This document shows positions 2,809-31,007 of a DNA stretch of 49,123 nucleotides, one piece after another. The notes below the pieces were generated by a model, which saw only the letters and a program-made list of their open reading frames with translations, ran no database searches and had not been told where the DNA came from. The stretch's first letter is position 1; each line of letters opens with the position of its first letter. Made by a program: the position numbers and the translations under genes. The stretch is from positions 1 to 49,123 of IMG/VR virus record IMGVR_UViG_3300023179_000162. The stretch is one strand, 5' to 3'. The stretch comes from a virus.

Positions 2809-4710
2809 ATGTCAACATCAATACTGTTGGAATCTGCTAAACCACCTGTTGGTCGTGAATTCCAACACCTTGAAGATTTAATTTACATAGAAGGCGCACG
2901 TGGTATAAAACGTGTGCTTGAATGTATTGCAGGTATTATTAAACGTCAACCACTTGAAGTAAAATGGGATGGTAGTCCTGCTATAATTTTCGGTAGGACC
3001 GACAATGGTCGTTTTCACTTTGGTGACAAATATAGTCGTGATATTGTAGACAGTTCCCAAGCAGTATATGAACAATATATTGGACGTAAACCTAAACGCA
3101 CATTTGAGCGTGAACAATTTGCACGTGATATGGCAGCATTGTATGACATATATGAAGCAGCAACGCCAAAAGATTTCCGTGGTTTTATGGAAGCAGGATT
3201 GTTATATAAAAATTCACCAAGTTTATTAGAAAACTGTTTCCAATGTAACCCAAATACAGTAATTTATAAAATTAACCCACAAAGTAAATTAGGGCAACGC
3301 ATTGCCAATAGTGTAAGTGGGTGTGCAGCAACCGCATATTTTCGTGATTTACCCGCTACAGGTGGTAGACGATATCCTGTAGGTGACTATGCCAATAGTT
3401 TTACAGGTAATAAGGTTGTTGTTATTCCACCATTACATACAAGTGATTCACCAAAATTAGAACGTGCATTATTAGAAAAATATTGGAACTTTGCTAAACA
3501 AAAGCGTAATAGTATTGATGAGTTTGTATCACCAATGGTTATAAAAAAGATACTATACGAATATGTTAACAGTCAGATTAATGAAAATGATTTAGATGCG
3601 TTACATAATTTAGGAGATAATTTTACTACCTATGCACGTGGTAGTTTATCTGCCAAAGAACAAAACATATTAGCTGAACATTTAAAAACACATTTAGATG
3701 GGGCTAACGATACTTTTAGGATGATACGTGCTACTATGAAAATTAAAGATTTAATTGTTGACCAACTTGAGGAAGGTACGCTACGTAAGTTAGGGATTGA
3801 GGCAGAACTACCTGATGGACAACGTGGTGGTGAAGGATTTGTTTATGATATCAATGAAGGTGTTAACCCAATTAAATTAGTCAAACGTGGCTCATTTACT
3901 AGAGCAAATAAGTTTAAAAATGAATCTAAGTATTTAAAAGAATCAATTAGTCGTAATGGTAAAAGTGATCGTGCTGTTATTACTTTTGGTCGTTGTATGG
4001 GGCATCGTGGACATATGTACTTAGCCAATAGTGTGTTTACTACAGCTAAAGAACAAGGTGCAGACCCTTATGTAATATTAAGCAGAACTATGGGTGATGA
4101 TGATCCACTTACACCCACAGAGAAAATGTCTATCTATCACAAAGTATTCCCCAATCAAAAGCAGTGTTTTGTTGCTGCAGATGATAGCATGCCTACATTG
4201 ATGAGTGCGTTGAAAAAGTTAAATGAATTAGGATATAAACATATTACTGCTATATTTGGCAATGATCGTGTTGATGGTATGAAGCATGTTAAAGAGTATA
4301 ATGGCAAGAGTTATCAATTTGAAACCTTAGATGTTATAAGTAGGCAACAAACCAATGATCCATATAAGAATTTAAATGGACCACGTGGCACAGATATGCG
4401 CAAAGTGTTAGCTGATCCTAATTTATCTGAAGAACAGAAATTTGGATATTGGCGCAAATGTATGAGTCCACAATTAAGTGATGATGATGTACAATATATT
4501 ATGAGCATTGTACAAAAACGTATGGGGCATCAGCTTGATGAAGCGGACAATCCTATGTATATAGGTGGTAACCAAAACAGCCCTATCCCAGGCACCCCTG
4601 AAGATTTATCCGATGTGCGCACACCTGCTCAAAAGCGTAAGGATGCGATTAAAGCTATTAAACAAGCACGTGAATTACGCAAATTTATGGGTCATAAGCC
4701 ACAACGTTAA
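2809..4710 (+). CDS. Two-domain nucleotidyltransferase: KxDG ligase-like (DUF6267-like) plus HxGH cytidylyltransferase-like domain
   Basis: The start is the ATG at 2809, two bases after the upstream stop, giving 633 residues. The N-terminal part has VKWDGSPAIIFGR near residue 62, the KxDG-type motif of covalent nucleotidyltransferases, followed by a FGDKYSRD segment; this is typical of a large phage family (DUF6267). The C-terminal part (about 400-590) starts with TFGRCMGHRGHMYLA, an HxGH-type signature of cytidylyl/adenylyltransferases, and ends with GPRGTDMR, resembling the family's ISGTxxR motif. It therefore appears to combine two chemically different nucleotidyl-transfer domains. RNA or NAD-related repair is plausible but unproven. 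The neighbour suggests co-expression with a packaged protein. Confidence 0.65.
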   Translation: MSTSILLESAKPPVGREFQHLEDLIYIEGARGIKRVLECIAGIIKRQPLEVKWDGSPAIIFGRTDNGRFHFGDKYSRDIVDSSQAVYEQYIGRKPKRTFEREQFARDMAALYDIYEAATPKDFRGFMEAGLLYKNSPSLLENCFQCNPNTVIYKINPQSKLGQRIANSVSGCAATAYFRDLPATGGRRYPVGDYANSFTGNKVVVIPPLHTSDSPKLERALLEKYWNFAKQKRNSIDEFVSPMVIKKILYEYVNSQINENDLDALHNLGDNFTTYARGSLSAKEQNILAEHLKTHLDGANDTFRMIRATMKIKDLIVDQLEEGTLRKLGIEAELPDGQRGGEGFVYDINEGVNPIKLVKRGSFTRANKFKNESKYLKESISRNGKSDRAVITFGRCMGHRGHMYLANSVFTTAKEQGADPYVILSRTMGDDDPLTPTEKMSIYHKVFPNQKQCFVAADDSMPTLMSALKKLNELGYKHITAIFGNDRVDGMKHVKEYNGKSYQFETLDVISRQQTNDPYKNLNGPRGTDMRKVLADPNLSEEQKFGYWRKCMSPQLSDDDVQYIMSIVQKRMGHQLDEADNPMYIGGNQNSPIPGTPEDLSDVRTPAQKRKDAIKAIKQARELRKFMGHKPQR

Positions 4711-4777: not shown

Positions 4778-4854
4778 TCATTCTGTAGTCAAAGTTCTCG
4801 AAACTACACTTAGGTCTCATTTAGCTATCATTTTACTTTTTAAGGAGAAATCAA

Positions 4855-5859
4855 ATGTCAAATTTAGCTGCCATTCGTGCAAAATTAGCTGCACAAGAAA
4901 TCAAAAGCAACCCACAATCAGCAACATCTTATTCAGGTGACAATGCCATTTATCCACATTGGAATATGGAAGAAGGTACAACCACTACGGTTCGTTTCTT
5001 ACCTGACGCAGATGGTTTGAATGATTATTTTTGGGTTGAGCGTAACATGATTAATCTTGAATTTCGTGGTATCAAGGGACAATCATCTAATTTAGTTACT
5101 GTTAAAGTACCATGTGTTGAAATGTTTGGTGACAACTGTCCCATTCTTGCAGAGGTTCGTACATTTTATAAAGACCCATCATTAAAAGAAATTGCTAACA
5201 AGTATTGGAAAAAGCGTACTTATATTTTCCAAGGTTTTGTTCGCAACAGTCAGATGACTGAAGAAAATCAACCTGAAAACCCAATTCGTCGATTCATTAT
5301 TTCACCACAAATTTTCGGTGTAATTAAGAATAGTTTGATGGATCCTGATATTGAAGAAGTACCCACACATTATTTGCGTGGTCTTGATTTTAGAATTATT
5401 AAAACAAGCAAAGGTGGTTATGCTGATTACAGTACAAGTGGTTGGGCACGTAAAGAAAGTGCTTTAACTGCTGATGAGCAGCAAGCCATTGAAAAGTTTG
5501 GTTTATTTAATTTAAAAGATTTCTTACCTAAGAAGCCTAGCGAAAGCGAACTACGTGTTATGAAAGAAATGTTTGATGCTAGTTTGAACGGTGAGGAATA
5601 TGATACTGAAAAATGGGGTGCATATTATCGCCCAAGTGGTGTACAAGCACCACAAAATACAAGTCATGTATCACATGATGAAGAAGAATCTTCGTATGTA
5701 GTTCAATCTCCTGTAGCTACAAAATCTGTTACTAAACAGGTTGACGAAGAACCTGTTGTAGCAACTGACGTTAAAGTAACTACGCAAGTTAGTGAAGCAA
5801 AGCAAAACGTAACTGACGTTCTTGCAATGATTCGTAGCAAGCGTAATGCACAAGCGTAA
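4855..5859 (+). CDS. Single-stranded DNA-binding protein, gp32 type
   Basis: This 334-residue protein coats single-stranded DNA during replication and recombination. The N-terminus (SNLAAIRAKLAAQE) matches the basic self-association arm of T4-type gp32. The core has FLPDADGLNDYFWVERNMI and a CVEMFGDNCPILAEV segment with Cys87 and Cys95, which corresponds to the zinc-binding region of gp32. The C-terminal third is acidic and Ser/Thr/Val-rich, as expected for the partner-binding tail. The length is close to T4 gp32 (301). A good AAGGAG site precedes the ATG. It heads the recombination block with UvsX and the UvsY-like gene. Confidence 0.9.
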   Translation: MSNLAAIRAKLAAQEIKSNPQSATSYSGDNAIYPHWNMEEGTTTTVRFLPDADGLNDYFWVERNMINLEFRGIKGQSSNLVTVKVPCVEMFGDNCPILAEVRTFYKDPSLKEIANKYWKKRTYIFQGFVRNSQMTEENQPENPIRRFIISPQIFGVIKNSLMDPDIEEVPTHYLRGLDFRIIKTSKGGYADYSTSGWARKESALTADEQQAIEKFGLFNLKDFLPKKPSESELRVMKEMFDASLNGEEYDTEKWGAYYRPSGVQAPQNTSHVSHDEEESSYVVQSPVATKSVTKQVDEEPVVATDVKVTTQVSEAKQNVTDVLAMIRSKRNAQA

Positions 5860-9634: not shown

Positions 9635-9945
9635 GATTCTTTACGCTTGTCTATAAATTCATTGTAAGTTTTAATTATTTCCAACGATTCAGGATTATGC
9701 TCTGTATCATAAGGAACAGGTAGAGTTTGCCATTCTTGTTCACTTACATCACAAGTTATAAGAATTTCATACTTGTGACCATCACTAGTATATAGTTCTA
9801 AGTGATCTAATCCTATAGTGCTTTTACTTGCTTTGATAAGTGCTTCGCCAAGTGAGCGTAATGCCGCCTTTTCACCGACGATAAACGCACGTCCATTAGG
9901 TTCAGTATGATTGTGCATATGTAACCTAGCTTTTGTACTAATCAT
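9619..9945 (-). CDS. Hypothetical protein, 108 residues
   Basis: It is read from the ATG at 9945, overlapping the end of the polymerase-like gene by 8 bases, so the two form a minus-strand pair. The protein starts with a His-rich strand (RLHMHNHTEPNG), a helix (ALRSLGEALIKASKS), then strands (HLELYTSDGHKYEILITCD). The family is not recognised; the alpha/beta layout and shared operon hint at a partner of the polymerase-like protein, by position only. Confidence 0.6.
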   Translation of the reverse strand: MISTKARLHMHNHTEPNGRAFIVGEKAALRSLGEALIKASKSTIGLDHLELYTSDGHKYEILITCDVSEQEWQTLPVPYDTEHNPESLEIIKTYNEFIDKRKESQNSI

Positions 9946-11611
9946 GTTGTAAATCCTTTAATTTTAACCGTTTGTGTTTTTTTACTGTAACATATTCAGT
10001 ATTGTTTTTATATCCGAGTTGTCCAACACCCCATAATATGGGTTGGTCATGAAAACTAATAGCTTTGTCTACAATTACGTCTAAGTATCGATTATTACCT
10101 GTGCCAAGCGTTACAAATGTAATATATTGTTTTGGCTTACTTTTGAACACACGATAGTTGGCAACTAGTCCACAGAATTCGACTTCGCCTGGTTTACGGA
10201 CTTCGTTGCAAAATGGTATAAATTTTTTACTATGCCATTTGCCTGTTTTTGATAACTCATCAAGTTCATTGCCTTCGTATATACTTGTTACAGCATCTGC
10301 TAGTTTAGCTTCATGATGATATACCCATCGACTATAACTACCTTGACAATGTTTTAATGTTGCTTGCCAAAATTTTTGTGGATTGTGTGCTTTTTGATAG
10401 GCAATCGCCCAAATTAATCTACCAAGATTTATAGCATGTGCTCGACATAACCCAAAATTGCTAAGTTCTTTCAACGCAAAAAATATATCTTCTTTGTGTT
10501 CATGGTCACCAATTTTTTTCATAAACTCAAATATTTTTTCTTCATCTTTTTTTGCAAATGCTCTGCGCCACATATCAGCATCATATTGGTTACAACCTAA
10601 CAATTCACTAATCAATATAATGGCATCATCTTCAAAAACAATTGTATTGTTAAAATTGTCTTTACTCCAATCTTGAAAGAAACTAGCTTTACGTCTACCT
10701 TGTGTAGCAACAGGTCTAATCAATGCAGTGGCTAGTACACAATCTTCACGCTTCTTGGGTTTTATTGCACGTAATAATCGACGCATAGCAGGACTTTCTG
10801 CCTGAGTAACACCAAGCACATTGCCACTACTTAATAGCTCCGAAGTTTTGTCATCATATTCAGGATAATCAAGTAAGTTTAAATTAGGCTCAATATCATA
10901 CAATTGTGATAGTCCACGATTAGCTAATATATCAATTTTAAAATGTTCTAAATCTTCAATTTCATACTTGTCAAGTAATATTTGATTTTCTGCATTAATC
11001 AAACTTTTAGGTACGGCACGATCAAAAATCAATATACCACCACAATGTTTACTAATACAACGTTTTTTACCTAGTAATTTCGTTGCTAACCTTTTAGCAT
11101 CAGCCGCATATTCAGGCACTACCTTATCTAAATTTAAATCACGTGGTAATCTACCTTTTGCACCAAATCGTTTAGCAGCTTCACGCACTGCACTTTTTTC
11201 TTTGTATGTAACATAATTGCTTACTCTAGCTGATTGCCCTTTCCATTTTTTAAAGATACGATTCATTACTGTTTCTTGTTGCCAATGTGGAAAATCAAGA
11301 TCAATATCAGGTAAATCATCACGTTTTGGGTTCATAAAACGTGATAAGGGTATGCGTTCTTTGATGGGGTCAACATCACTGATGCCTAGTAACCAACATA
11401 CTAGACTGCTACCTGCGCTACCACGTGTCATGTGTGGTATATCAGTGGTTAATTTAAGTATTTCAACCACACGCAAGAAATGTTTTGCAAAGTTTAGTTC
11501 AAGGATTAAGTTAAGTTCTTCTTCAAGTCGTTGTGTATATTCAGTTTGTGGTGGTAATTGTCTAACAAAATGATGGGTTAATATTTCAAGTTGCTTTAGT
11601 CTTTCTTCCAT
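9938..11611 (-). CDS. Compact C-family DNA polymerase-like protein (DnaE palm region, no PHP domain)
   Basis: This 557-residue protein matches the middle of bacterial DNA polymerase III alpha. RGSAGSS (63-69) followed by LLGISDVDPI and the catalytic PDIDLDF at 101-107 correspond to the palm Asp pair; the KHCGGILI segment near 189 and FKIDILANRGL with Asp227 correspond to the third Asp region. Finger-type segments such as ESPAMRRLLRAIKP follow, and the end may be an OB-like domain. It lacks the N-terminal PHP exonuclease domain and is about half the family length. It may be an accessory or translesion enzyme, or a repurposed polymerase. It sits on an isolated minus-strand island. Confidence 0.75.
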   Translation of the reverse strand: MEERLKQLEILTHHFVRQLPPQTEYTQRLEEELNLILELNFAKHFLRVVEILKLTTDIPHMTRGSAGSSLVCWLLGISDVDPIKERIPLSRFMNPKRDDLPDIDLDFPHWQQETVMNRIFKKWKGQSARVSNYVTYKEKSAVREAAKRFGAKGRLPRDLNLDKVVPEYAADAKRLATKLLGKKRCISKHCGGILIFDRAVPKSLINAENQILLDKYEIEDLEHFKIDILANRGLSQLYDIEPNLNLLDYPEYDDKTSELLSSGNVLGVTQAESPAMRRLLRAIKPKKREDCVLATALIRPVATQGRRKASFFQDWSKDNFNNTIVFEDDAIILISELLGCNQYDADMWRRAFAKKDEEKIFEFMKKIGDHEHKEDIFFALKELSNFGLCRAHAINLGRLIWAIAYQKAHNPQKFWQATLKHCQGSYSRWVYHHEAKLADAVTSIYEGNELDELSKTGKWHSKKFIPFCNEVRKPGEVEFCGLVANYRVFKSKPKQYITFVTLGTGNNRYLDVIVDKAISFHDQPILWGVGQLGYKNNTEYVTVKKHKRLKLKDLQHD

Positions 11612-24144: not shown

Positions 24145-25386
24145 ATGGGCGAGGTTTATCATTTTCAAGAATGTAGTTTTTGTGGCAAACACAAAAACGT
24201 AGTTAAAAAACTAATAGTAGGTGAAAGCACTGCTATTTGTAGTGATTGTGTAGAATTATGTAATGACTTATTAAAGGATGATGAACCTGACACTGATGAT
24301 GCTCCACGTAAAATAAGTTTCTATCCTGATGATATAAAAGCATTTTTAGACAATTACATTATTGGACAAGATCATGCTAAAACTATAATTAGTGTTGCAG
24401 TAGCAAATCATTACAAACGTATCACTGCTGATATTAAAGAATTAGAAATACAAAAAGCCAACGTGCTGTTGTTAGGACCAAGCGGTGGTGGTAAAACACT
24501 GTTGGCTAAAACAGTTGCAAAGTACTTAGATGTTCCTTTTATTATAGCAGATGCTACATCATTAACTGAAGCAGGTTATGTTGGTGACGATGTAGAAAGT
24601 ATGATACAACGATTAATTGCTGCTGCTGATAATGATATTGATCGAGCAGAGCGTGGTATTGTTTTTATTGATGAAATAGACAAGATTGCTCGAAAAAGTG
24701 AAAGTGCAAGTATTACACGTGACGTAAGTGGTGAAGGTGTACAACAAGCATTATTAAAAATTGTTGAAGGTACTGTATGTCGTATACCACAAGCAGGTAA
24801 ACGTAAACATCCAAATAATGAGATGTTAGAAATTGATACCAAAAATATATTGTTTATAGCAGGTGGAGCATTTGTTGGCTTAGCAGATATAATTTCAAGG
24901 CGATTACATGGAAATAGCATAGGTTTTGGAGCAGCAGTTAATTCTTCAAAGGCACAAGACAAAGTTCTAGCACAAGTTAATCCTGATGACTTAACTAAGT
25001 TTGGCATGATACCTGAGTTAATAGGTCGTTTTACAAGTCGTGTGGCTATATCAGACTTGACAAAAGATCAACTTGTTGCTATATTGACACAGGTTAAAAA
25101 CAATTTTATAGAACAATATCGCTATTTGTTAAGTTTGGATGAAATTGAAATATCATTTACACCACAAGCTGTTGAACAAATTGCAGAAAACTGCTTAAAT
25201 TTAAAAACAGGTGCAAGAGGTTTACAATCTGAGGTAGAGCGTGTGCTTATGAACGTCATGTTCAATTGTAAAAAATTAAAAGGAAAACACATAGAAATTG
25301 ACAAAAAACATATTGATGACCCTAATTTGCTAAATATGTATTGGGAATCTTACCTAGGATCTACATTACGCAAAGGAAAAAAATGA
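24145..25386 (+). CDS. clpX: ClpX, ATP-dependent unfoldase
   Basis: This 413-residue AAA+ unfoldase feeds proteins to ClpP. The zinc domain has Cys10, 13, 32 and 35. The Walker A motif GPSGGGKT is at 111-118, pore loop AGYVG, Walker B FIDEIDKIARKS, the RKH loop in KRKHPNN, the IGF loop (NSIGFGA) that docks on ClpP, and GARGL for sensor 2. The length is close to E. coli ClpX (424), so it seems complete and able to pair with ClpP. The phage also has ClpP and ClpS. It heads the proteostasis block; the stop overlaps the bS21 start. Confidence 0.93.
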   Translation: MGEVYHFQECSFCGKHKNVVKKLIVGESTAICSDCVELCNDLLKDDEPDTDDAPRKISFYPDDIKAFLDNYIIGQDHAKTIISVAVANHYKRITADIKELEIQKANVLLLGPSGGGKTLLAKTVAKYLDVPFIIADATSLTEAGYVGDDVESMIQRLIAAADNDIDRAERGIVFIDEIDKIARKSESASITRDVSGEGVQQALLKIVEGTVCRIPQAGKRKHPNNEMLEIDTKNILFIAGGAFVGLADIISRRLHGNSIGFGAAVNSSKAQDKVLAQVNPDDLTKFGMIPELIGRFTSRVAISDLTKDQLVAILTQVKNNFIEQYRYLLSLDEIEISFTPQAVEQIAENCLNLKTGARGLQSEVERVLMNVMFNCKKLKGKHIEIDKKHIDDPNLLNMYWESYLGSTLRKGKK

Positions 25387-25592
25387 AAGTAGTTATCAAG
25401 GATGGTCAATCATTTGAAAGTGGTATACGTAAGTTTAAAAAGAAAGTTCTTGAAAGTGGCATGTTAAATGAACTACGTGAACGTCAAGAATATACTAAAC
25501 CAAGTATTGCAAGAAAAATTGCAAGAGGTAAGGCAGTAAGTCGTTGGAAAAAATATTTACGTAGTCAGGAATTACCAACTAAACTATTTTAA
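25383..25592 (+). CDS. rpsU: Ribosomal protein bS21
   Basis: The ATG at 25383 overlaps the clpX stop and gives 69 residues. The protein has the S21 pattern: a KKKVLESGMLNELRERQEY helix with Lys/Arg-rich KPSIARKIARGKAVSRWKKY. bS21 binds near the anti-Shine-Dalgarno end of 16S rRNA, so a phage copy may bias initiation toward phage mRNA. It is full length and directly follows ClpX. Confidence 0.85.
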   Translation: MKVVIKDGQSFESGIRKFKKKVLESGMLNELRERQEYTKPSIARKIARGKAVSRWKKYLRSQELPTKLF

Positions 25593-25593
25593 A

Positions 25594-25749
25594 ATGAAAA
25601 AATCATTTATTGATTGGGTAGAAATAGAAGTCACACCTGAAGAAGAGGAAGCATGGCAAAATTTTCTTACCAAACAATATGAATTAAAACAAAGAGAAAT
25701 TAATTTAGAAACTACAATTCCCAAGGAGATTAAAGATGGCATACAGTGA
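25594..25749 (+). CDS. Small acidic hypothetical protein, 51 residues
   Basis: The ATG lies two bases after the bS21 stop, and the end overlaps the iscU start by 14 bases. It has acidic TPEEEEAWQ and a Lys-rich end (YELKQREINLETTIPKE), probably helical. No family was recognised. The AAGGAGATTAAAG in its end is the ribosome site of iscU. Confidence 0.5.
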   Translation: MKKSFIDWVEIEVTPEEEEAWQNFLTKQYELKQREINLETTIPKEIKDGIQ

Positions 25750-26119
25750 ACAGGTAATAGATCATTATGAAAATCCAAGAAATGTGGGCAGTTTTGATAA
25801 GTCTGATAACGCCGTTGGCACTGGTATGGTTGGGGCACCTGCTTGCGGTGATGTAATGAAACTTCAAATTAAAGTAAAAGATGGAATCATTCAAGATGCA
25901 AAATTTAAGACGTATGGATGTGGCTCAGCGATTGCAAGTAGTTCGTTGGTTACGGAGTGGGTTAAAGGCAAAACTTTGGACGAAGCAACGTCTATCAAAA
26001 ATACTCAAATCGCACAGGAACTTGCACTCCCACCCGTTAAGATCCACTGTTCAATACTTGCTGAGGACGCAATTAAAGCAGCAATAAACGATTATAAACA
26101 AAAACATAGTATTCAATGA
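25736..26119 (+). CDS. iscU: IscU iron-sulfur scaffold
   Basis: This 127-residue protein is the scaffold on which Fe-S clusters are built. Cys37 (PACGD), Cys62 (YGCGSAIASSS) and Cys105 (VKIHCSILAEDA) are the three ligands, and the LPPVK site that binds HscA is at 98-102. The sequence looks close to the Escherichia type, including AYSEQVIDHYENPRNVGSFD. Local GC is about 43% by hand count over 25801-26040, above the neighbours, which suggests a recent bacterial origin. No IscS or HscA was seen, so host partners are needed. Confidence 0.92.
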   Translation: MAYSEQVIDHYENPRNVGSFDKSDNAVGTGMVGAPACGDVMKLQIKVKDGIIQDAKFKTYGCGSAIASSSLVTEWVKGKTLDEATSIKNTQIAQELALPPVKIHCSILAEDAIKAAINDYKQKHSIQ

Positions 26120-26316
26120 TTATATTGTTTGTAGTATTTTTTATTCTTGGTATGGTTTTTCTCATGAGTTCAAGGTGGAACGTTGACCAACAGGTTAAAA
26201 TGAGTATGCCACCCCAAGATATAGAACAAATTAATCTTGAACTTGACAGACGTGAAGAAGTAGGTGTACTATTTCTTTTGATATCAGCATTTTTTCTTAT
26301 TTTTTTAATTATTTAA
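26116..26316 (+). CDS. Small membrane protein, 66 residues
   Basis: It overlaps the iscU stop by four bases. An N-terminal helix ([16 protein letters not shown]) and a C-terminal helix ([16 protein letters not shown]) flank a polar middle. It is probably in the inner membrane, with the middle outside or inside unknown. The function is unknown. Confidence 0.6.
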
Positions 26317-26326
26317 AAGGAACCCC

Positions 26327-27439
26327 ATGAGAATTGAAAATGAAATCTTACTTGATTTCAAGGATGTACTAATTCGTCCAAAGCGTAGTACACTATCAAG
26401 TCGTAAAGAAGTAGACTTAATTAAATGGTATAAATTTAAACATAGTGGGTATGAATATAAAGGTATACCTATTATGGCAGCTAATATGGATGGTGTTGGC
26501 ACTTTAAAAATGGCAGAAACATTAAGTCAACATAGGTTATTCACCTGCCTTATTAAAACTTATAATAAAGACATTGATAATTTTTCTGTATTTAATGTAA
26601 ACAAAGATTATTATGCTGTTAGTACAGGAACTAGTGAAGAAGATTTTCGTAACCTAAACACTATTGTCACAGGTATTGGAGCACAATTTATTTGTATTGA
26701 TGTAGCCAATGGGTTTAGTGAACATTTTGGTGACTTTGTTGAAAGCGTAAGAAATCGTTGGCCTGATAAAACAATTATTGCAGGTAATGTAGTTACAGCA
26801 GATATGACACAGGAGTTAATATTACGTGGAGCAGATATTGTTAAAGTGGGGATTGGGCCTGGGAGTGTTTGCACTACTCGTGTACAAACAGGTGTGGGTT
26901 ATCCTCAACTTAGTGCAATTATCGAATGTGCCGATGCTGCTCATGGTCTTGGTGGGCATATTATCGCTGATGGAGGGTGTACTTGTCCTGGGGATGTTGC
27001 TAAAGCTTTTGGTGCAGGAGCAGATTTTGTAATGCTAGGTGGCATGTTTGGTGGACACGATGAAGGTGGTGGAGAAGTTATTACAAAATATTATAATACT
27101 TCAGAAATTAATCCACTTACAGTTTGGAATAATGATAATACTCATAGCCATGACATGGAACCAATATTAGACATTAAAAAGTTTGTACAATTTTATGGCA
27201 TGAGTAGCGATACTGCTATGAATAAAACACATGGTGGTGTAGCAGAATATCGTTCTAGTGAAGGACGTACAGTAGAAATACCCTATAAAGGACAAGTTAA
27301 AAATACTGTACTTGATATATTAGGTGGTTTACGCAGCACTTGTACTTACGTGGGTGCATCTACTTTAAAACAACTACCAAAATGTACAACATTTATTAGA
27401 GTAAACCGTCAAATTAATGATGTGTTTATCCAAAAATAG
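26327..27439 (+). CDS. guaC: GMP reductase
   Basis: This 370-residue enzyme converts GMP to IMP with NADPH. It aligns well with E. coli Gua[47 protein letters not shown] with the catalytic Cys182, [17 protein letters not shown] and [10 protein letters not shown]. The end matches too ([14 protein letters not shown]). Compared with E. coli there is an insertion of roughly 25 residues after [13 protein letters not shown]. It may adjust purine pools for an AT-rich genome. An AAAAGGAACC site precedes the ATG. The gene is distinct from IMPDH because CBS domains are absent. Confidence 0.87.
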
Positions 27440-27473
27440 TAGAATATATTGCGAAATTTTGTAAAATATATAT

Positions 27474-27539
27474 GAATGTAGATGCCAATGGTTGGGTCTA
27501 CATTTCAAAATGTCATCTTGCTTAATAAAGGAGAAAAAT
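27474..27539 (+). promoter_or_regulatory. Candidate ROSE-like RNA thermometer in hsp20 leader
   Basis: A first hairpin pairs AATGTAGA (27475-27482) with TCTACATT (27497-27504), with an inner CCAA/TTGG stem. A second pairs CUUGCUU (27517-27523) with the AAGGAG ribosome site (27528-27533) around an AAUA loop, with one G bulged. UUGCU facing the Shine-Dalgarno with a bulged G is the hallmark of ROSE elements upstream of bacterial Hsp20 genes. Confidence 0.55.
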
Positions 27540-27989
27540 ATGACAAATCTTACACTTCGTTCATTTGATATTCCCACAATTACAAAGTTTGGTATAGGTT
27601 TCGAGCGTATGTTCGATGAACTATCACGCTTTAATGAAATATCGCAACAAACTAATTACCCACCATATAATGTCATTGAGATAAATGATGACAAGTATGT
27701 TATTGAACTTGCGGTAGCGGGATTTAAAGAAGGTGAAATTGAAATTACTTTAAACAATCGTAACTTAATTGTTAAGAGTAATCGCCAAACTGCAACGGTT
27801 GAAGGCGAAGAAACTAAGTATATTCATCATGGTATCAGTGCACGTGCTTTTATGCGTAGTTGGCCTATTGCTGAGTACGTAGAAGTAACTAGTGCAACTC
27901 AGGAAAATGGTATTTTATCCATTACTTTAGAGCGTAAAGTACCTGAGGAAAAGAAACCAAAAACCATTGCAATTACATATTATAAGTGA
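27540..27989 (+). CDS. Hsp20 small heat-shock protein (IbpA-like)
   Basis: The ATG at 27540 follows AAGGAG and gives 149 residues. The alpha-crystallin domain is clear: PPYNVIEINDDKYVIELAVAGF, EGEIEITLNNRNLIV, YIHHGISARAFMRSW and GILSITLERKVPEEKKPK. The start resembles IbpA (TNLTLRSFDIP). The protein holds unfolded proteins. The gene lies between GMP reductase and ClpS. It is similar to T4-like cyanophage and bacterial Hsp20 proteins. A structured leader suggests temperature control. Confidence 0.88.
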   Translation: MTNLTLRSFDIPTITKFGIGFERMFDELSRFNEISQQTNYPPYNVIEINDDKYVIELAVAGFKEGEIEITLNNRNLIVKSNRQTATVEGEETKYIHHGISARAFMRSWPIAEYVEVTSATQENGILSITLERKVPEEKKPKTIAITYYK

Positions 27990-27996
27990 TAAAATA

Positions 27997-28004
27997 CTAA
28001 ATAA
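27997..28004 (+). promoter_or_regulatory. Possible late-promoter-like motif CTAAATAA
   Basis: CTAAATAA lies just before the hairpin ahead of clpS. It differs from TATAAATA in its first bases. It may place a start of transcription at the hairpin, so this is a weak call. Confidence 0.2.
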
Positions 28005-28048
28005 TAGAGTCAGCGTAGTGTTTTGCTGCGCTGAACTCTATGTTTTTT
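28005..28048 (+). terminator. Terminator-like hairpin before clpS
   Basis: TAGAGTCAGCGTAG pairs with CTGCGCTGAACTCTA with one bulge and one G-U pair, loop TGTTTTG. A TTTTTT run at 28043-28048 follows. It looks like an intrinsic terminator, or attenuator because clpS starts 12 bases later. Confidence 0.6.
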
Positions 28049-28060
28049 AGAGGAAATAAA

Positions 28061-28366
28061 ATGTCAAAAACGGATGTAAAAACAAGAATTAAGCCTAATT
28101 TGAAGATACAAGAACCTAGTTTGTACAAAGTCATTTATATAAATGATGATGTAACTACTATTGAGTTTGTTATAGAATCACTTGTTGAATTTTTTAATTA
28201 TACTGCTGAAACAGCGGTAGAGTTAACAAAGAACATCCATGATGAAGGCAGTGCTGTAGTTGCAACATTACCATATGAATTAGCTGAGCAAAAAGGTTTA
28301 GAAGTAACCTTGTCTGCAAGAGCTAATGGTTATCCTTTACAAATTAAAATAGAAGCTACAGACTAA
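28061..28366 (+). CDS. clpS: ClpS adaptor protein
   Basis: The ATG at 28061 follows GAGGAAATAAA and gives 101 residues. LYKVIYINDDVTTIEFVIESLVEFF, then AVELTKNIHDEGSAVVATLPYELAEQK and a final strand match ClpS. ClpS delivers N-degron substrates to ClpA and blocks other ClpA substrates. The motif residues of the substrate pocket (NDD and the H near DEGSAV) are visible. No ClpA is encoded in this window, so the partner would be a host ClpA. It is convergent with the next minus-strand gene, overlapping by 4 bases. Confidence 0.85.
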   Translation: MSKTDVKTRIKPNLKIQEPSLYKVIYINDDVTTIEFVIESLVEFFNYTAETAVELTKNIHDEGSAVVATLPYELAEQKGLEVTLSARANGYPLQIKIEATD

Positions 28367-29049
28367 GCTAAAGGTATTTTCTTAGGGTGGTAAGGATTGT
28401 GCATTTTAGGATTGTTACAATACCTACGTGAATTAAAGGTATGATCAATCATTCTTTTGTATGATCCAAATAACCATGTATCTATTTTGTGTTTAATGTC
28501 TTGTGATAAACACATAATCAATCCCATTTGATCAATAACTTGCACTGTAGGATCATTAAAAGTAATTTGTTTCGAGGGTAAACAGCTTGATACAACTACT
28601 ATTCTTGTAGCGTCTTGATGGTCTTGCAAACTTTTTACAGTGCGTGACAAATAAGTAAAATCCTCATCAAAGTATTTCAATGCTGTATCAGCGTCATTAT
28701 TGTCAGTATTATACCACCCATTTATACCAATAAATGCAACACCATTAAGTATTATAACGTGATTGTGTAAGTAAACTACATTAGGTATAGGTTTACATAT
28801 AATACGTAATTTTTCAATAACAATATTTGAATTTTCTATATGGGTATTTTCTAAAGCACCATCAATATATAGTACACCACGATAGTATTGACTTAAGTTT
28901 TTTAAAACACTCTCGACTACTGTTAAATCTGTACTAATGTTACCTGCTACAACACAAAATAGTGATGTAGCTTTACCATCCCAATCAAACTCGTCATCTG
29001 CAGTTAAATTTAAATCACTTATTAAATCTACAGCGAAAGAAAAATCCAT
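28363..29049 (-). CDS. Metallophosphoesterase-fold protein lacking metal ligands (likely pseudoenzyme)
   Basis: The protein has 228 residues and the order of a calcineurin-like phosphoesterase, but the active site is gone. The first motif reads ISDLNL (residues 10-15; Asn instead of His), the GD motif is VAGNIS (34-39; Asn instead of Asp), the GNHE site is DGALE, the HH motif is SSCLPS (154-159) and GHxH is FGSYKR (194-199). The intact relative at 38436 shows DAH, GDI, GNHE, THHAP and GHVH. So the fold may be kept for binding. It forms a minus-strand pair with the next gene. Confidence 0.55.
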   Translation of the reverse strand: MDFSFAVDLISDLNLTADDEFDWDGKATSLFCVVAGNISTDLTVVESVLKNLSQYYRGVLYIDGALENTHIENSNIVIEKLRIICKPIPNVVYLHNHVIILNGVAFIGINGWYNTDNNDADTALKYFDEDFTYLSRTVKSLQDHQDATRIVVVSSCLPSKQITFNDPTVQVIDQMGLIMCLSQDIKHKIDTWLFGSYKRMIDHTFNSRRYCNNPKMHNPYHPKKIPLA

Positions 29050-29052
29050 TTT

Positions 29053-29337
29053 TTAATTTTTTGGTGTTCTAGGTTTTCTTGGCTTAGTTGGTTTTGGTTC
29101 TGCAGGTGGTGGGGTTTCTGCCTTTTGTTTTTTGATTGGTGCTACGACAACGTTATCTTTTTTAGCTTTGCGTGGTGCTTTTGCTTCAGGTTTTGGTTGT
29201 TCAGCTTGTGGTGCTGCAACAGGTTCAGGCGCAACTACAGGTGCAGTACTCTCAACACGAACATGTGTTCCTGTATCAGTAGGTTCTTGTTTACCAACAA
29301 ATAGTTCTCTGATAAATTTTCCAATTTTTTCAAACAT
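29053..29337 (-). CDS. Pro/Ala/Lys-rich low-complexity protein, 94 residues
   Basis: The start has an amphipathic helix (FEKIGKFIRELFVGK); the rest is rich in Pro, Ala, Lys and Glu (PEPVAAPQAEQPKPEAKAP, then KPTKPRKPRTPKN). A GGAG site precedes the start. Such tails resemble histone H1-like or linker proteins. The helix could bind membrane or protein. The function is unknown. Confidence 0.55.
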   Translation of the reverse strand: MFEKIGKFIRELFVGKQEPTDTGTHVRVESTAPVVAPEPVAAPQAEQPKPEAKAPRKAKKDNVVVAPIKKQKAETPPPAEPKPTKPRKPRTPKN

Positions 29338-29402
29338 TTTATATCTCCTAATTTAGTATTTAATCTTTCTAATTTCAACTTTAAATTTTGGTAAATAACG
29401 TA

Positions 29403-29894
29403 ATGAAACGTTCTAAAATAAAAGAAATAATGGAATTACCACTTCCTACCATTACTGAGCAACGTAAGAAATCATATCGACCTACCCTAAGAAAAATTAG
29501 ATCAACTTATAGATTGATTAATGAAGAAATTTTTCAAAATAAATTAACAATACCCGAAATACAATTGATACAACGATCAAGATATTGGGGTTTATGTATG
29601 GGTAAAGGTAGAGGTGGTAGTCCATTTCCTACAGGATCATATTGTGTTATAAAATTAAACAATAAATTTTATTCACAGCATTGGATGATTGCCACATTAT
29701 CTCATGAAATGGTGCATCAATATCAATGGGATATTGATAGTGAGCAACGTAAAAAAAGGGGGAAACCACCTATTATGAGTCATGGACCGTCATTTCATGC
29801 TTGGAAAAAAAAGTTGGCTAAGTTTGGTATTACTTTAAAAACAACTTTTTCAAAAGAAAAATGGTTTACCTATCAAAAATTAGATAAGTGTTAG
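29403..29894 (+). CDS. SprT-like metalloprotease, 163 residues
   Basis: The ATG at 29403 is used. The zinc-site motif LSHEMVHQYQWD (HExxH at 101-105) is preceded by RSTYRLINEEIF and NKLTIPEIQLIQRSRYWG, as in SprT/Spartan-type proteases. A following SHGPSFHAWKKKLA segment supplies the third ligand. SprT proteins cleave DNA-protein crosslinks in eukaryotic Spartan; the bacterial roles are not well known. It sits between the minus-strand pair and a DUF2452 gene. Confidence 0.75.
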   Translation: MKRSKIKEIMELPLPTITEQRKKSYRPTLRKIRSTYRLINEEIFQNKLTIPEIQLIQRSRYWGLCMGKGRGGSPFPTGSYCVIKLNNKFYSQHWMIATLSHEMVHQYQWDIDSEQRKKRGKPPIMSHGPSFHAWKKKLAKFGITLKTTFSKEKWFTYQKLDKC

Positions 29895-29928
29895 ATTGTT
29901 TTTGCATACTGATACGTTATAATGCACC

Positions 29929-30411
29929 ATGTCTGAAGATAAAAAACCCAATTCAATGAAGGGTAGAACAAGTTATGATTCTGAAATCGGAGGTTTACCT
30001 GCGATTTTTATAAACAGAAACATAACAGAATATCCTGTTGAAGTAAGTGCACCAAAGTTTGACCTTGTGCCTATAAAGCAACAAAAAGATATTATGCTTA
30101 ATGTTGCAAGGTTGCATGCTCATCAAGAGTATGATAGGATTATGCAACTTGTAAATGTATTGCAGGATCAAGCAGCACAAATTAAACGTAGGTTAGATAT
30201 TACAGATTGGGTTCACGCAGCAGAATACAAGTTTCAAATAGCTCACGGTCAAACATATTGGTTGTTATATGATCAACAGATACAGAAAACAAGGTTGTCG
30301 CTGCATGGTCCTAACGATTGGAGCACAGGTGTACCCGAACATTACGAGTACATAACTAAAGTTCAATGGTTAGGTGATTATACTTGGATTGAAGTAGAGG
30401 AAAATAAATGA
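29929..30411 (+). CDS. DUF2452-family protein, 160 residues
   Basis: The protein has [29 protein letters not shown] near the start, a helix ([21 protein letters not shown]) and [21 protein letters not shown] and [11 protein letters not shown] at the end. These features match DUF2452, a family of unknown function. The start is six bases after a TATAAT. It overlaps the clpP start by four bases. Confidence 0.65.
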
Positions 30412-31007
30412 GTCTTGTACCAATAGTTATAGAACAAACAAGTCGTGGTGAACGTAGCTACGATATTTACAGTAGATTACTACGTGATCGTGTAGTGATA
30501 TTAAATGGTGAAGTAAATCAAATTACAGCCAATCTTATCGTAGCGCAATTACTCTTTTTAGAAAGTGAAGATACTGATAAAGATATTAGTTTTTACATCA
30601 ACAGCCCAGGCGGTTCTGTCACCGATGGCATGAGTATTTATGATACTATGCAATTTATCAAACCTGATGTTTCTACCATTGTTATGGGTCAAGCTTGTAG
30701 TATGGGATCATTCTTAGCACAAGCAGGTGCTGTGGGTAAACGTTTTATACTACCCCATGCACGTCACATGATACATCAACCTAGCGGTGGAGCACGTGGT
30801 ATGGCTAGTGACATGGAAATTTCACTAAAAGAAATTTTAAAAATGAAGCGTATGTTGACTGACCTTTACGTAAAACACAATACTGCAGGTAAAACCTTTC
30901 AAGATTTTCAACAGGATATGGACAGGGACAAGTATATGTCTGCTGAAGAATCAGTCGAATATGGTTTGGCAGATAAAGTTATTAGTAAAAGAGAAACTCA
31001 TGTCTAA
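30408..31007 (+). CDS. clpP: ClpP serine protease
   Basis: This 199-residue protein is the proteolytic chamber for ClpX. The catalytic Ser98 lies in [10 protein letters not shown] and His123 in MIHQPSGG; the Asp is in the [11 protein letters not shown] segment near 170-174. [16 protein letters not shown] is the oxyanion region. Length and order match bacterial ClpP without a long propeptide. The product likely pairs with the ClpX encoded 5 kb upstream. The end overlaps the next gene by eight bases. Confidence 0.93.

Follow-up and report, generated by a model that had tools for sequence, protein, structure and literature searches.

A probable ROSE-like RNA thermometer in the hsp20 leader of a T4-like phage and its relatives

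The small heat shock gene hsp20 is a core gene of cyanophages, and its control is unexplained in the open-access literature that we searched. The stretch of DNA analysed here (the window) is a virus contig of 49,123 bases with T4-like genes (ssDNA-binding protein, UvsX). It carries an hsp20 gene preceded by the leader GAAUGUAGAUGCCAAUGGUUGGGUCUACAUUUCAAAAUGUCAUCUUGCUUAAUAAAGGAGAAAAAUAUG, and this raises the question of whether a phage can sense temperature directly through its own mRNA. An earlier prediction, made from the sequence alone, had placed a ROSE-like RNA thermometer in front of this gene. It claimed that the ribosome site AAGGAG pairs with CUUGCUU, with one bulged G, around an AAUA loop, that a second, longer hairpin lies upstream and that the phage Hsp20 would respond to heat without host sigma32.

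The core pairs of hairpin 2 can be read directly from the sequence: C27517-G27533, U27518-A27532, U27519.G27531, C27521-G27530, U27522-A27529 and U27523-A27528, with G27520 bulged and the AAUA loop at 27524-27527. The minimum-free-energy fold reproduces the same pairs. The predicted pairing (27517-27533) is exactly as claimed; the longer upstream hairpin is also present (27474-27505), and the proposed span of 27474 to 27540 fits both hairpins. Hairpin 1 folds better than 200 of 200 shuffles (z -3.4), and its bulged G27484 sits in a Y-G-C/GG context, as does that of hairpin 2. In the predicted fold, the outer-arm pairing of hairpin 2 (27511-27515 with 27541-27545) takes in two bases of the start codon, its U and its G. 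GTCA occupies the outer-arm position in 27 leaders, and every one of these starts with ATGAC, compared with 41 of the 107 without it; these GTCA/ATGAC leaders belong mostly to one clade. The coordinates are collected in Table 1.

Table 1. Position of the leader elements and neighbouring genes in the window.
Feature	Coordinates	Strand	Basis or remark
ClpX	24145-25386		member of proteostasis cluster
NifU-type scaffold	25736-26119		accompanies proteostasis cluster
IMP dehydrogenase/GMP reductase	26327-27439		accompanies proteostasis cluster
AT-rich promoter-like stretch TGTAAAATATATAT (tentative)	27460..27473	+	relatives have TATAAATA/TATAAT 3-5 nt before hairpin 1
Hairpin 1, loop UGG, bulged G27484	27474..27505	+	stem 27474-27483/27496-27505, inner stem 27485-27488/27492-27495
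Outer arm of hairpin 2 (UGUCA), able to pair with 27541-27545	27511..27515	+	predicted fold
Hairpin 2, putative thermosensor hairpin	27516..27534	+	U27516-A27534 plus anti-SD/SD helix; sequence, fold, model match 27476-27542
Anti-Shine-Dalgarno CUUGCUU with U(U/C)GCU motif, G27520 bulged	27517..27523	+	core in 47/49 unique hsp20 leaders; bulged G and C-G above it invariant in 101 leaders
Ribosome binding site AAGGAG	27528..27533	+	sequence
hsp20 coding sequence	27540..27989	+	149 aa; Pfam HSP20 66.7 bits, E 2e-18; PHROG 432 140.5 bits
Probable terminator, hairpin then T run, between hsp20 and clpS	28004..28048	+	terminator scan 2 vs 0.4 expected; fold z -4.9
ClpS	28061-28366		member of proteostasis cluster
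SprT-like	29388-29894		member of proteostasis cluster
ClpP	30408-31007		member of proteostasis cluster

The identity of the gene as phage hsp20 is also confirmed, by its Pfam HSP20 and PHROG 432 matches and by its position on a T4-like virus contig. An in-frame ATG at 27510 is not kept in the leaders of relatives, and we therefore take 27540 as the start codon; a coding N-terminal extension from 27510 was considered and rejected, the reading frame not being preserved among relatives. The hairpin and T run behind the gene are predicted to be a terminator or attenuator ahead of clpS, a terminator being likely, in which case hsp20 would be a one-gene message. The surrounding region (24145-31007) is a proteostasis cluster within a single phage, comprising ClpX, Hsp20, ClpS, SprT-like and ClpP genes. 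The contig, T4-like in other respects, also includes a DNA polymerase III alpha-like gene (Pfam DNA_pol3_alpha) at 9938-11611 on the minus strand. Megablast of the window against phage isolates gave no match.

Conservation was assessed with relatives selected by Hsp20 protein similarity alone, which provided 49 distinct leaders. We defined the core of the element as the pattern YYGCT..RGGR within the last 50 bases of the leader. In the window alone a match to this core is weak evidence, roughly a 1-in-20 chance match, since 5.1% of shuffles of the window leader contain it. Among the relatives, the core is present in 47 of the 49 hsp20 leaders compared with 26 of the 474 other genes examined on these contigs, and three of these 26 are dnaK genes with a real element. 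The two hsp20 genes that lack it (L023 and L026) seem to follow immediately on another gene and to have no separate leader; there the element is found before dnaK instead. Both the UUGCU and UCGCU forms of the anti-SD motif occur. The hairpin with a 5' bulge upstream of the core is similarly constrained: of 130 leaders, 121 have G as the bulged base (57 of 238 in shuffles), 124 have a C-G pair above the bulge and 116 have U.G or C-G below it.

A covariance model (R1), built from ten leaders with the window excluded, matches window positions 27476-27542 at 64.7 bits (E 1e-13) and also matches nearly all other leaders. In 101 aligned leaders, 93.8% of cells pair compared with 74.5% in shuffles, double-sided changes occur in 342 cells compared with 101 in shuffles, and pairing falls to 48-57% in slid-partner controls. 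Both hairpins retain the bulged G in its Y-G-C/GG setting. Hairpin 1 covaries strongly, with nine of its 11 model pairs changing on both sides. Hairpin 2 is nearly invariant, its bulged G and the C-G pair above entirely so, and it shows little covariation, the ribosome site being fixed. The U.G pair of the ROSE motif is changed to C-G in 14 of the 101 leaders, always beside the bulged G, and this is mostly a one-sided change. Fitting this alignment to the model favours the structure, but the unaided fold and the raw sequences agree with it: RNAalifold predicts hairpin 1 unaided, with seven of nine pairs compensated. A first MAFFT alignment of 25 sequences was excluded, having misaligned hairpin 1. 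Conservation across relatives and covariation show that the structure of the leader is real, far beyond chance.

The sequence-level features that define ROSE-like thermometers are all present. The leader stands upstream of a heat-shock gene, the encoded protein having an HSP20 domain; a U(U/C)GCU motif pairs imperfectly with the SD (UUGCU 27518-27522 with AGGA 27529-27532); a bulged G (G27520) lies within the anti-SD helix; there are two hairpins, within the usual two to four, with the SD in the 3'-most; and the structure is conserved by compensatory changes, chiefly in hairpin 1. A search with the ROSE models, which the original prediction had suggested as a check, found no ROSE family in Rfam scans of the window, and ROSE_3 (RF02523) gave no match there at E 10. 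On phage relatives ROSE_3 scores 20.6-34.5 bits over the whole element, aligning in full length to L201, L208, L205 and L209, and no phage leader tested reaches its gathering cut-off of 43 bits. ROSE_3 has the same two-hairpin layout, with a bulged G both in hairpin 1 (GAUGCC...GGGUC) and in hairpin 2. Since the plan is shared with ROSE_3 and the ibpA element but the score lies below the cut-off, we call the phage leaders ROSE-like by structure and not members of RF02523 by score. A search of 349 Pseudomonadota genomes gives ten loci with ROSE_3 and six with our phage model R2, two of them common to both (in G140 and G200); the readable R2 loci, the weakest excepted, lie before hsp20/ibpA-type genes. 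The suggestion of a ROSE-like thermometer is thus supported, all testable sequence-level features being present and conserved, although a temperature effect is unproved. Absence of the pairing from relatives had been named as grounds for refutation; this was examined and the pairing was found to be conserved.

The closest known system is the short ROSE element of Pseudomonas ibpA (Krajewski 2013, PMC3669281). It too has two hairpins in about 60 nt before a small heat shock gene; the first is stable, and in the 3' one U(U/C)GCU pairs with the ribosome site. It has been shown experimentally to respond to heat: hairpin 2 melts while hairpin 1 stays closed (PMC3669281). In another ROSE-like element, deletion of the bulged G or a change of U.G to C-G lowers the heat response (PMC11342760). 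The ibpA element is chromosomal and transcribed by sigma32 (PMC3669281), whereas that of the window is carried by a phage and associated with promoter motifs of late or sigma70-like type, and in phage relatives the element is also found on dnaK and groES. In addition, the start codon is unpaired in ibpA but predicted to be partly paired in the clade of the window.

Relatives of hsp20 are present in 507 of 50,697 phage records, mostly cyanophages. The element was found in 20 of the 21 phage isolates examined, which include cyanophages (for example, Syn9, Syn1, S-RIM2, P-RSM4 and MED4-213), Pelagibacter and Methylophilales phages, Sinorhizobium phage Phosso and Pseudomonas phage 30-2; the sole exception, with no match, is Salicola phage SCTP-2. 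All 13 complete isolates have their best model match at the hsp20 leader; syn9 alone shows a further match, a weak one. In freshwater phage contigs the element occurs twice, before dnaK and again between dnaK and hsp20. Among related viral dnaK genes, 53 of 54 unique leaders contain the element, with the second copy before the following hsp20; these are not 53 independent cases, because the dnaK group is closely related. The metagenomic contigs in these comparisons are predicted viruses. The element precedes groES in a single case (L171), and a GroES search for further cases yielded only copies of this one locus.

A number of other leaders deserve mention. Some dnaK leaders (L312 1415-1494, also L322, L326 and L318) appear to have three hairpins, like the classical longer ROSE, in the order hairpin 1, a small GGGCAUGGUGCCC-type hairpin and the ribosome-site hairpin. 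ROSE-like leaders also occur before a rubredoxin-like gene directly preceding hsp20 (L117 2229-2283, L186 4043-4096), where the leader of hsp20 itself falls within the end of the rubredoxin gene, and before genes for two small proteins of 65 and 90 aa (L145 4153-4209, L091 2801-2861), whose family is unknown and which weakly resemble phasins. A groES leader on the minus strand of L182 (9659-9715) has a weak model match (16.2 bits) without the ROSE core and is possibly another kind of leader. The hsp20 leader of a SAR86 bacterium (L212 1912-1994) matches the phage model weakly (25.1 bits) and is a possible cellular counterpart in marine plankton. The virus contig L171, with putative groES and hsp20 thermometers, also encodes a permuted/alphaproteobacterial-type tmRNA at 3178-3493 (Rfam 107.5 and 85.7 bits). 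Weak matches lacking the conserved core were discarded, both in the window (4808-4857, 17.6 bits, before the ssDNA-binding protein gene) and in syn9, G374 and G373.

Motifs resembling TATAAATA have the form of T4-type late promoters. Across 121 leaders, occurrences of TATAAATA (allowing at most one mismatch) are most frequent 3-5 nt ahead of hairpin 1, and 100 of these leaders have a -10-like hexamer within 22 nt, compared with 55 in shuffles. Some leaders (for example, L056) have a TTGACA-17-TATAAT sequence before hairpin 1. A scan for sigma70 sites at 27460..27473 of the window found none. The position of these motifs points to hairpin 1 as the start of the message. Resemblance of the sequences upstream of many relatives' leaders to phage late or sigma70 promoters would fit independence of sigma32; this remains only a possibility, with no mapped start site. 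The predicted heat response without host sigma32 is unproved, the promoter motifs of relatives being merely compatible with it.

The sequence, pairing, conservation, covariation, placement before chaperone genes and likeness to cellular ROSE are shown. We consider it likely that positions 27474-27545 form a short ROSE-like RNA thermometer with two hairpins, carried by a T4-like phage and controlling a viral chaperone; opening with temperature, the effect on translation and sigma32 independence are inferred. Hairpin 1 would stand at the start of the hsp20 message, or close to it, as a stable structural or protective element. Hairpin 2 would hide the ribosome binding site through imperfect U(U/C)GCU pairing, weakened by the bulged G and the U.G pair, and in the clade of the window would also tie up the start codon. 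As the infected cell warms, hairpin 2 would open, ribosomes would bind and viral Hsp20 would be made independently of any heat-shock sigma factor. The cassette would likewise govern dnaK in related phages and, at one locus, groES. In nearest-neighbour calculations, hairpin 2 by itself comes to -2.8 kcal/mol at 25 C and to -0.5 at 42 C. For whole leaders, the predicted accessibility of the site varies only slightly with temperature and fails to distinguish hsp20 leaders from controls. This model ignores the non-standard pairs of ROSE.

The strongest alternative, which we regard as unlikely, is that the conserved leader restrains the translation of chaperone genes without being tuned to temperature. 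Hairpin 2 might then merely lower initiation, or it might answer to a phage protein (RegA, for example) or to the load of ribosomes; hairpin 1 might bind a protein or protect from RNase. In its favour, the melting calculations show no switch (with the reservation just given), the structure of hairpin 1 is more conserved than expected of a mere spacer and has its own invariant bulged G, and regA lies just upstream in several cyanophages. Against it, the element tracks chaperone genes (hsp20, dnaK, groES) and not early genes, and its plan is common to cellular elements proven to be heat-responsive (PMC3669281). A metabolite riboswitch is very unlikely. The region 27458-27542 has weak Rfam matches to preQ1-II (RF01054, 15.9 bits) and freshwater-2 RNA (RF02980, 16.4 bits), and freshwater-2 reaches 32.5 bits in L209. 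However, the window scores are far below gathering (47 bits for preQ1-II, 49.9 for freshwater-2), both resemblances amount to tail matches only, that to freshwater-2 stemming from the AAAGGAGAAAACAAAUG tail and recurring at many unrelated places in the same genomes, and the controlled genes are chaperones. Chance pairing in an AT-rich leader, for which the core in 5% of window shuffles might speak, is all but excluded by conservation across phage groups and covariation. A fourU thermometer was also rejected: the anti-SD is CUUGCUU, without four successive U opposite the SD.

Thermometers are known in phages, namely lambda cIII, SPbeta blyA and a sigma70 gene of gut Caudoviricetes (PMC4166951, PMC11182007). 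These likewise are phage mRNA leaders governed by temperature, but that of lambda cIII acts in the opposite sense, those of blyA and the sigma70 gene are fourU elements, and none is a ROSE element or controls a chaperone. The Synechocystis hsp17 and Anabaena sHSP thermometers (PMC4477652, PMC4166951) also govern small heat shock genes; that of hsp17 is a single hairpin, whereas cyanophage leaders follow the proteobacterial two-hairpin plan. In the open-access literature searched (subscription journals were outside its scope) we found neither a phage ROSE element or phage hsp20 thermometer nor any experiment on such a leader. For the S-PM2d hsp20 leader, a putative Pho box, ATTCAAACTCGCTTAAATA, has been proposed at -31 (PMC10976474). 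As inferred from the published letters, it contains the ROSE anti-SD motif and may possibly belong to a thermometer instead. Cyanophage Hsp20 groups with bacterial class A proteins and not with cyanobacterial ones (PMC3827213). This would fit, as no more than a possibility, a joint entry of gene and thermometer from proteobacteria.

A phage branch of ROSE-like RNA thermometers on viral chaperones is the best reading of these results and a likely one, with the temperature response inferred. What is probably new is the setting of a known kind of thermometer, in the widespread chaperone leaders of phages. With a ROSE-like leader before the chaperone genes of very many aquatic phages, these phages probably switch on their own chaperones on heating. 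A bolder reading, which we would neither favour nor dismiss, is that large T4-like phages run an RNA-only heat-shock regulon. Transcribed from phage or sigma70-type promoters, dnaK, hsp20 and in some cases groES would each have a ROSE thermometer of its own, and viral Hsp70, Hsp20 and GroES would rise with temperature in hosts with other types of thermometer (for example, cyanobacteria). If the thermometer reading is true, phage dnaK and groES would be new clients of such elements, and viruses that rank among the most abundant in lakes and seas would sense temperature directly and respond with their own chaperones, which would bear on infection during warming.
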